Part shown: piece by piece, positions 41,111 through 42,775 of the stretch | Layout: every line of letters begins with the position of its first letter | Numbering within the stretch: position 1 is the first letter of the stretch | From: Panagrolaimus kolymaensis | Taxonomy: Eukaryota > Nematoda > Chromadorea > Rhabditida > Panagrolaimidae | Direction: 5' to 3' | NCBI GenBank assembly: GCA_028622995.1 | Contig: JAJQJQ010000018.1 | Coordinates: 2,790,001 to 2,854,000 of the forward strand | Length of the DNA: 64,000 nucleotides | Made by a program: the position numbers and the translations under genes | Notes under the pieces: model-generated | The model's input: only the letters and a program-made list of their open reading frames with translations | What the model was told of the DNA's origin: nothing | The model's database searches: none

Positions 41111-42775
41111 TTATTCTTTTTCACATAAATTTCTTAGAACTGATGGTACGTTTTCTGTTGTTTTAGCACTATTATGAACATATGATTTCTTCGAAGAAGA
41201 CGATTTCCAACGAGCACCACGATCCAATTCAGCTTCAGAGCATCCAGCTTCAATAGCAGCAGTTGCAGCACTTCTTCGAAATGAATGTACTGTCAGATTT
41301 TTCTTTATTCCCATTCTTGTTGAAGTTGATTTGAGTTCTTTTAGGACAGTATTGTAAGACCATGGTGGATCAGTACCTAAAAATCTGAAAAAGAGGGGGA
41401 AGGGTAAAAGGAAGAAGTACACTTGGTGACCCATTCTTCGAGAATGGCAACTGGGCAGGAATGGCATTCTTACTTTTTAATGAATATTGGCTCAACCGGC
41501 CCATTTTGTTTACATTTAGACTTTATGTGATTAATTTTAACGTTCTTTTCACTAAACTTTACTTGATTTCTTTTTAATGTTTCAGATGTAGCAACAATAT
41601 CTCGAGTGAGAGAAAATACATGTTCTATAAAGTAATTAGCTATAGGCATCTTATAGCCTTTTTCTTCGGATTTCAACATATACAGTTGAGCCTTAACTTT
41701 ATCGGTAATCTTATGATTATGCTTTTGAGGAATAAGAATACATCTACGACGAACTTCTTTAGTTTTTTGAACTCGAAATAATATACCCGCATGATCTCCA
41801 GTTTGAGCAAATTCAACAGCTTTATTAAAACATTCAGGACCAGAAACAACAGCTTGGACACCTTCATTATCACAATCAAGAATTTCGACTTTATCACCAT
41901 GTTTCAATATATCACGTCTGAGCAAATTCAACAGCTTTATTAAAACATTCAAGACCAGAACCAACAGCTTGGATACCTTCATTATCACAAACAAGAATTT
42001 TAACATTATCACTACGTTTCAATATGCCGCGTTCAAGTTTTCCAGTGATGACTGTGCCACGACTTTTGATAGCATAAACATGTTCAGTAGCGAACATCGG
42101 CTTTTGATTAGTATCCCGATTGTGAATAACAAATTTGGAATCCATAACTTCGAGTAATTCACGAATTTTGTTTTCACCAATTTCAGGTTGTTTTCTTTCA
42201 AGGGCACAAAGAGCATAACCAGCAACGATAAGGACAGTTTCTTCTGGATATCCATAATAGGAGAGCATTTCAGGAACTTCCATTTCAACAAGTTCAACCA
42301 ATTCGCAATCAGAAGCTTCAACTTTGTTCAAAAATACAACAAGATTTTTAACAGGAATACCAACTTGTTTTGCAAGAAGAAGATGTTCACGAGTCTGAAG
42401 CATAGAGCCTTCAGTAGTAGCGACAACAAGAATAACTCCATCCATTTGAGCAGCTCCAGTAATTATATTCTTTTTGTAATCAGCATGACCGGGATAATCG
42501 ATATGAGCATAATGACGATTTGGTGTTTCATATTCCAAGAGACAAGTATTAATAGTTATACCACGAGCTTTTTCTTCAGGTGCTTTATCAATGTCTTCGT
42601 ATTTACGGAATTTAGCTCCTTTCTCAGCAGCAAGAACTTTGGCGATAGCAGAAGAAAGAGGTGTTTTACCATGATCTATGTGTCCAATCGTACCAACATT
42701 TAAATGAGGTTTATCTCGTTTGAAAACAGCTTTTCCACCAGGAACAGCATAAAATCTGACAGAGAATAGTGACAT
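41111..42775 (-). pseudogene. mitochondrial EF-Tu fused to tyrosine-recombinase C-terminus
   Basis: From the ATG at 42775 an intronless frame encodes a mitochondrial-type elongation factor Tu: a short leader, KPHLNVGTIGHIDHGKT, EEKARGITIN, GHADYKKNIITGAAQMDG, QTREHLLLAKQVG, GTVITGKLERG. It covers domains 1 and 2 and the start of domain 3 (up to HVFSLTRDIVA), then changes without a stop to recombinase-like sequence (RNQVKFSEKNVKI). An 89-nt intron (41385-41473, GTAAGA...TTTCAG) joins in frame to exon 41111-41384, which holds the recombinase HSFRRSAATAAIEAG (H-x-x-R) and a C-terminal KKSYVHNSA tyrosine. A 115-bp tandem duplication (junction at 41918/41919) shifts the frame, so one continuous product cannot be made; the upstream frame stops at 41912. 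GTPase motifs are altered (NKVE for NKxD, GYAL for GSAL). The recombinase N-terminal half with its first catalytic Arg is absent. Confidence 0.84.
41804..42033 (-). repeat. 115-bp tandem duplication within the EF-Tu segment
   Basis: Two head-to-tail units, 41804-41918 and 41919-42033, differ at about a dozen positions. The unit covers the domain 2 region encoding CDNEG(I/V)QAV and ECFNKAVEFAQT. Because 115 is not a multiple of three, it moves the downstream sequence into another frame. Confidence 0.88.

Follow-up and report, generated by a model that had tools for sequence, protein, structure and literature searches.

Architecture of the Element

The window, i.e., the whole stretch of 64,000 nucleotides analysed here (G000:C17:2790001-2854000, on contig C17), contains a retrotransposon of the PAT type in which part of a host gene for mitochondrial EF-Tu occupies the place expected for the beginning of the tyrosine recombinase (YR). 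DNA searches covered the 265.8-Mb, 807-contig assembly. The features of the element itself are as follows:

40878..45644 (-): whole PAT-type element (4767 bp), with split direct repeats; 5' boundary uncertain by 1 nt
45529..45644 (-): repeat A1, identical to A2 over 116/116 nt (100%)
44629..45693 (-): gag-like ORF of 354 aa (stop to stop); its start lies outside the element, in the flank; collinear with the ORF of an ordinary element
43587..44942 (-): shortened pol ORF, reverse transcriptase alone (RVT_1 is the only Pfam domain)
43189..43335 (-): internal repeat B1, identical to B2 over 147/147 nt (100%)
43075..43190 (-): internal repeat A2, 116 nt, 100% identical to A1
42795..42975 (-): left remnant, comprising the beginning of the YR region and a putative 5' splice site; seen in the cargo-carrying lineage only
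42823..42837 (-): left copy (15 nt) of the direct repeat TTTTCAGATTTTTAG, from a repeat search around the cargo
41377..41391 (-): right copy (15 nt) of the same repeat, from the same search
40878..41024 (-): repeat B2, 147 nt, 100% identical to B1

Both ends of the element are common to at least seven copies with differing flanks, and its split direct repeats follow the A1-B1A2-B2 order of PAT elements. Along the element, the pol ORF is followed by B1A2 and then by the YR remnant, which is the nematode form, with the internal repeats between pol and YR. The pol ORF encodes a predicted reverse transcriptase (RVT_1, E 1.9e-18), RNase H is absent from the element by Pfam, the DNA similarity to the ordinary element ends at element position 2055, and what would follow RNase H, in PAT elements a methyltransferase-like region, is missing as well. 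No credible Pfam family was found for the gag-like ORF, in which a Cys/His cluster, CFVCQGPHLKRDC, is visible by eye and to which no Pfam zinc-finger profile matches.

Searching the assembly with the left remnant (42975-42795) returned 11 matches in 10 elements (11 of 11 candidates scored), namely the seven near-identical copies described below and the elements on C49, on C15 and at C5:4784137. Going by this distribution, the left remnant can be taken as a marker of the cargo-carrying lineage. The 15-nt repeat, which resembles a nematode 3' splice site and encloses the cargo along with some YR sequence, is also found in two copies each in the elements on C15 and at C5:4784137 and is absent from the ordinary element L012; it may reflect the way in which the slot came about.

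The EF-Tu Cargo and Its Host Gene

Five further features make up the cargo and what is left of the recombinase:

41591..42797 (-): cargo, about 1.2 kb of coding sequence captured from host mitochondrial EF-Tu; five host introns absent, both ends within the host CDS
41912..42844 (-): EF-Tu reading frame of 310 aa between stops, terminated within the first 115-bp unit
41909..42023 (-): unit 1 (115 bp) of a tandem duplication, from the repeat search
41794..41908 (-): unit 2 (115 bp), 89% identical to unit 1
41111..41581 (-): degraded C-terminal portion of the YR (PF00589), aligned to an ordinary YR; includes a proposed intron, 41385-41473

The GTPase domain of EF-Tu is recognized by Pfam with an E-value of 1.5e-47, the pieces of domains 2 and 3 fall under the Pfam curated cut-offs, and solved EF-Tu structures are matched at E 2.5e-16, mitochondrial EF-Tu being the closest kind of protein. 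When aligned with the nuclear EF-Tu genes of the host over 1092 columns, the cargo is 93.0% (C9), 92.5% (C2) and 92.6% (C17) identical to the three homeologs of one gene (gene a) and 85% identical to a second one (gene b). A third EF-Tu-like gene (L041, L042, L043), 44–56% identical to the cargo protein, lies about 3 kb or less from gene a on C2, C9 and C17.

Five introns of gene a (46–56 nt) are exactly missing from the cargo, the sites of loss being 42781/42780, 42639/42638, about 42400/42399, 42067/42066 and 41686/41685, so that host exons are joined without introns inside the element. The cargo starts inside host exon 1, 3' of the host start codon, and its other end lies in domain 3. At 42775 it has a derived ATG, the host codon there being ATT (Ile). 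In the cargo/host alignment, a 3-nt slip at the third intron produces a spurious stop in the host sequences. The EF-Tu piece derives from the host's own gene and, given the five exact intron losses, was likely copied from a host mRNA. The initial annotation had proposed just this, i.e., that an intronless mRNA copy of mitochondrial EF-Tu had been taken up by a DIRS/PAT element in the recombinase's place, and both the comparison with gene a and the split repeats support it.

Reading Frame and Recombinase Remnant

The same annotation had EF-Tu domains 1, 2 and part of 3 running without a stop into the recombinase, followed by an intron (41385-41473) leading in frame to an exon with HSFRR and the catalytic Tyr. 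All the domains named are matched, but they do not lie in one frame: the 115-nt tandem duplication causes a frameshift by which EF-Tu runs into a stop at 41912-41914 (TGA), and all eight of the EF-Tu copies examined (8/8) have the duplication junction. The passage from domain 3 into the YR at about 41591/41581 is indeed stop-free, in a second ORF that is open across the join, but the EF-Tu frame has already ended by then.

The C-terminal YR piece with HSFRR and Tyr is present as described (PF00589, E 5.7e-8). The YR sequence restarts at about 41581, just 3' of a position at which an Arg is invariant in the four ordinary YR frames compared (4/4). This residue, which we take to be the box-I Arg, is absent from the window element, where it has been replaced by EF-Tu together with the N-terminal part of the enzyme, leaving the element without a full catalytic set. 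The element is a defective derivative, related to PAT elements by descent. As for the proposed intron, L012 has continuous YR coding sequence at the aligned place, and the window element has an 8-nt insertion there; 41385-41473 is thus more simply read as decayed coding sequence than as an intron, and an in-frame splice to the HSFRR exon appears less likely.

Decay of the Cargo

Changes since the separation of cargo and host gene a were polarised with gene b, dropping the sites at which the a-homeologs or the b-genes disagree; from 76 differences between the element and gene a of C9, this left 59 polarised changes (45 on the element branch, 14 on the host branch), with the changes in codons hit twice scored singly. 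The element branch shows 36 nonsynonymous and 9 synonymous changes, compared with 1 nonsynonymous and 13 synonymous for the host (Fisher P 1.4e-6), and by codon position they amount to 15/17/13 versus 1/0/13. A neutral simulation with the observed base changes yields 33.0 +/- 2.8 nonsynonymous changes. According to these counts, EF-Tu has changed since its capture as if neutral, with no sign of purifying selection, and a function of the cargo kept by selection was rejected. The open first frame of 310 aa is no sign of function either, since 33% of the simulated neutral runs remain without any stop. Moreover, GTPase motifs are altered in the cargo (GKTT to GKTP, DCPGH to DYPGH).

Copies, Insertion Sites and Ordinary Relatives

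The search for other EF-Tu-bearing copies retrieved 93 candidates, of which the best 40 were scored, so that all copy numbers are lower bounds. Within these 40, there are at least seven near-identical copies, i.e., the window copy and at least six others at 100% identity (rounded) over at least 2463 bases. Compared over the full 4767 bp, these six show no substitution relative to the window copy (C85, C43, C18), one (C23, C30) or two (C5), and a 1-nt indel at window position 43497 (placed with the C43 copy) sets all six apart from it. Both flanks differ among the seven, which places them at unrelated sites: the cargo has been mobilised with the element. A copy on C49 (99% identity over 2022 bases in the DNA search, 97.7% over element positions 1028-4342) has a different 3' end; its divergence marks it as an older, eighth EF-Tu copy.

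A region on C9 homeologous to the insertion lacks the element and aligns with window positions 38596-40664 (95.4%) and, beyond the element, from 45831 onwards (91.8%). It offers no clean empty site, because 213 and 186 nt of the window flank are missing and the two matches are separated by some 1.4 kb of different sequence. The window also contains a pelota-like gene (39492-40298, eRF1 domains 1 and 2 by Pfam), and a DNA query spanning the end of this gene and the flank (40100-40877) gives six matches including the window, where triploidy would lead one to expect three.

An ordinary relative on C5 (L012/L065) encodes reverse transcriptase and RNase H, a further C-terminal stretch without profile match, which is the region missing from the window copy, and an uninterrupted YR frame (PF00589, E 5.1e-15). 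Its B1A2 is 98% identical to that of the EF-Tu copies. Used as a query, the B1A2 of L012 gave at least 11 full-length matches among the best 40 of 107 candidates, these being the query itself plus the 10 cargo-bearing elements; 10 of the 11 close B1A2 junctions found thus belong to cargo carriers. Six more B1A2 sites match at 82–83%: in the two that were inspected, L057 and L058, the YR is ordinary, and the spacing suggests the same for the other four. Ordinary copies with a full YR N-terminus therefore exist, as had been envisaged in case EF-Tu merely lay nearby, but in the EF-Tu copies that N-terminal part is replaced and not simply adjacent. A more distant PAT element (L056, G000:C66:572900-575500), to which copies on C61, C6 and C3 are similar, has a second partial YR and a piece of A2 before an uninterrupted YR frame.

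Other Cargoes in the Same Slot

The element on C15 carries, in the same slot as EF-Tu, a piece resembling alanyl-tRNA synthetase (AlaRS), so that the C15 and window elements contain different host genes with the same left boundary. The AlaRS cargo shares 92, 92 and 91% protein identity with the host loci on C14, C16 and C15 and differs from the host by 27–31 mismatches in 475 nt. Since Pfam named nothing in this cargo, its identification rests on a match to the structure of an alanyl-tRNA synthetase (2zze in the PDB, E 8.7e-6) and on motifs of this enzyme. The clearly aligned host stretch lies within one exon, and the evidence from intron loss is thus confined to EF-Tu. The AlaRS cargo (G000:C15:1129316-1130345, L014/L015) is also arranged in tandem, with a spacing of 275 nt compared with 115 nt for the EF-Tu units, neither being a multiple of three.

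The C5:4784137 element contains six 115-nt EF-Tu units, and the 33 nt at its left join match the AlaRS cargo at 25/33 positions and the host AlaRS gene at 23/33 (best in the window: 21). It looks like an AlaRS/EF-Tu mosaic, although the AlaRS part is less sure, the match being short. Its units have derived bases in common with the two units of the window, which points to a single capture of EF-Tu. About 740 nt of extra sequence split the left remnant of this mosaic element (L020, about 1950-2687).

Origin and Spread

We consider it probable that the element is a non-autonomous PAT in which EF-Tu, derived from a spliced mRNA, replaced the first part of the YR through template switching of the reverse transcriptase, and which has since been moved in trans while its cargo decays neutrally. 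Minus-strand synthesis would have started on the element RNA in the YR region, the enzyme would then have switched to the host EF-Tu mRNA and finally back to the element RNA at or near the ATG shared at the left join, the 115-nt tandem duplication arising afterwards. Microhomology is limited to these 3 nt on the left, and none is clear at the right join. Template switching is favoured by the intron loss, the ends internal to the CDS, the replacement of YR sequence, the shared ATG and the mosaics; the second host gene in the slot (C15) and the C5 mosaic are the outcome that it would lead one to expect. The element would be mobilised by the RT-RNase H and YR of close relatives with intact frames, with EF-Tu as a neutrally decaying passenger. 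Mobilisation in trans is favoured because RNase H and a complete YR are lacking, the termini match and B1A2 is 98% identical to that of an intact relative. A recent spread of the EF-Tu element by means of the enzymes of such relatives is likely.

At face value, the open ORF across the join and the splice-like ends at 41473 and 41385 might suggest that splicing yields a single fusion protein, composed of EF-Tu and the recombinase C-terminus, that serves the element, as initially proposed. We regard this as highly improbable: a frameshift and a stop ahead of the join interrupt the frame in all eight copies, the box-I Arg is gone, the supposed intron is coding in L012, purifying selection is absent, and the ORF across the join had none of 68 candidates at E 1e-3 among 5.8 billion proteins. 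A processed EF-Tu pseudogene made by a LINE and inserted into a PAT element that then amplified would also be intronless. The cargo, however, ends within the CDS, in domain 3, with the YR directly adjoining and no 3' UTR or poly(A), YR sequence is replaced rather than interrupted, and the left boundary is the same for another host gene in C15. Neither poly(A) nor a target-site duplication was found around the cargo within the window YR, the 15-nt repeat enclosing YR sequence as well; we rejected this route as decidedly unlikely.

A repair event (end joining or gene conversion), rather than reverse transcription, that linked an EF-Tu cDNA with a broken PAT copy at the DNA level would fit a left join that shares the ATG alone, and tandem duplications such as those of 115 and 275 nt are known from repair too. 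Two host genes at one left boundary and the AlaRS/EF-Tu mosaic are more easily obtained by repeated switching among co-packaged RNAs, which makes repair a rather unlikely source. An assembly artefact, finally, is next to impossible. No support for a join was found, near-identical copies are dispersed at sites with separate flanks, and one diverged copy exists besides; moreover, the genome, if it is that of Panagrolaimus kolymaensis, as is likely, is triploid and was assembled from 84x HiFi reads (PMC10374039).

Relation to Known Systems

Gene capture is well known in LTR elements, Helitrons and Pack-type DNA transposons. Among LTR retrotransposons, Bs1 of maize, for which the part of PMC13317346 available also treats template switching, carries pieces of more than one host gene and no full-length captured ORF. 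The case described here is alike in these respects, but it concerns an animal YR retrotransposon, its cargo replaces the integrating enzyme, and the different genes are carried by separate elements and a mosaic. Closer in type is SymbioDIRS-Dnmt3 of Symbiodinium, a DIRS-type element (A-coding-B-A-B) with an acquired cellular gene (PMC5890265). There, an old DNMT domain sits in the pol frame and is kept by many members, whereas the cargo of the window is recent, decaying, replaces the YR and, with its 36 nonsynonymous and 9 synonymous changes, is not an acquired gene kept under selection. SIRE, a truncated non-autonomous form of VIPER, is likewise a non-autonomous derivative of a YR retrotransposon, no host gene being mentioned in the text available (PMC6681497).

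Like the window element, the Pat1-like PAT elements of the nematode form have A1-B1A2-B2 repeats, gag, reverse transcriptase and internal repeats upstream of the YR (PMC4157794); the window element differs in that its YR is largely replaced by a host gene and that RNase H and the following region are missing. The available parts of PMC4157794, of PMC3266345 (which do not mention non-autonomous forms either) and of PMC8547959 contain nothing on host-gene capture, and in the literature searched, mostly outside subscription journals, no capture of a host mRNA by a PAT element was found. While gene capture by retrotransposons as such is known, its occurrence in a PAT element thus appears to be new, as far as these searches go. 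A single genome contains the donor gene with its introns, an ordinary relative, an older copy, a mosaic and another captured gene, which allows each step between capture and amplification to be dated. Little is known about how YR retrotransposons replicate, and this too becomes testable, both for enzymes acting in trans and for the sites at which the reverse transcriptase changes template.

Nematode small-RNA licensing of the CSR-1 kind reads RNA that resembles host genes as self. A PAT lineage could, in a speculative extension to which we give little credence, use its recombinase slot as a cargo slot, repeatedly loading copies of germline-expressed housekeeping mRNAs of the host (mitochondrial EF-Tu, AlaRS), shuffling them between elements and spreading better because its host-like RNA would pass as self. 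Perfect 22-mers in common with host gene a cover 640 of the 1092 cargo positions, the longest runs reaching 99 nt; on this view the protein might decay without restraint while host identity over long stretches is kept, yet a copy this young would retain many of them anyway.

On the sense strand, the 45 polarised changes of the element branch include 15 G>A and 5 C>T, a strand bias that, in these small numbers, might reflect deamination of minus-strand cDNA.
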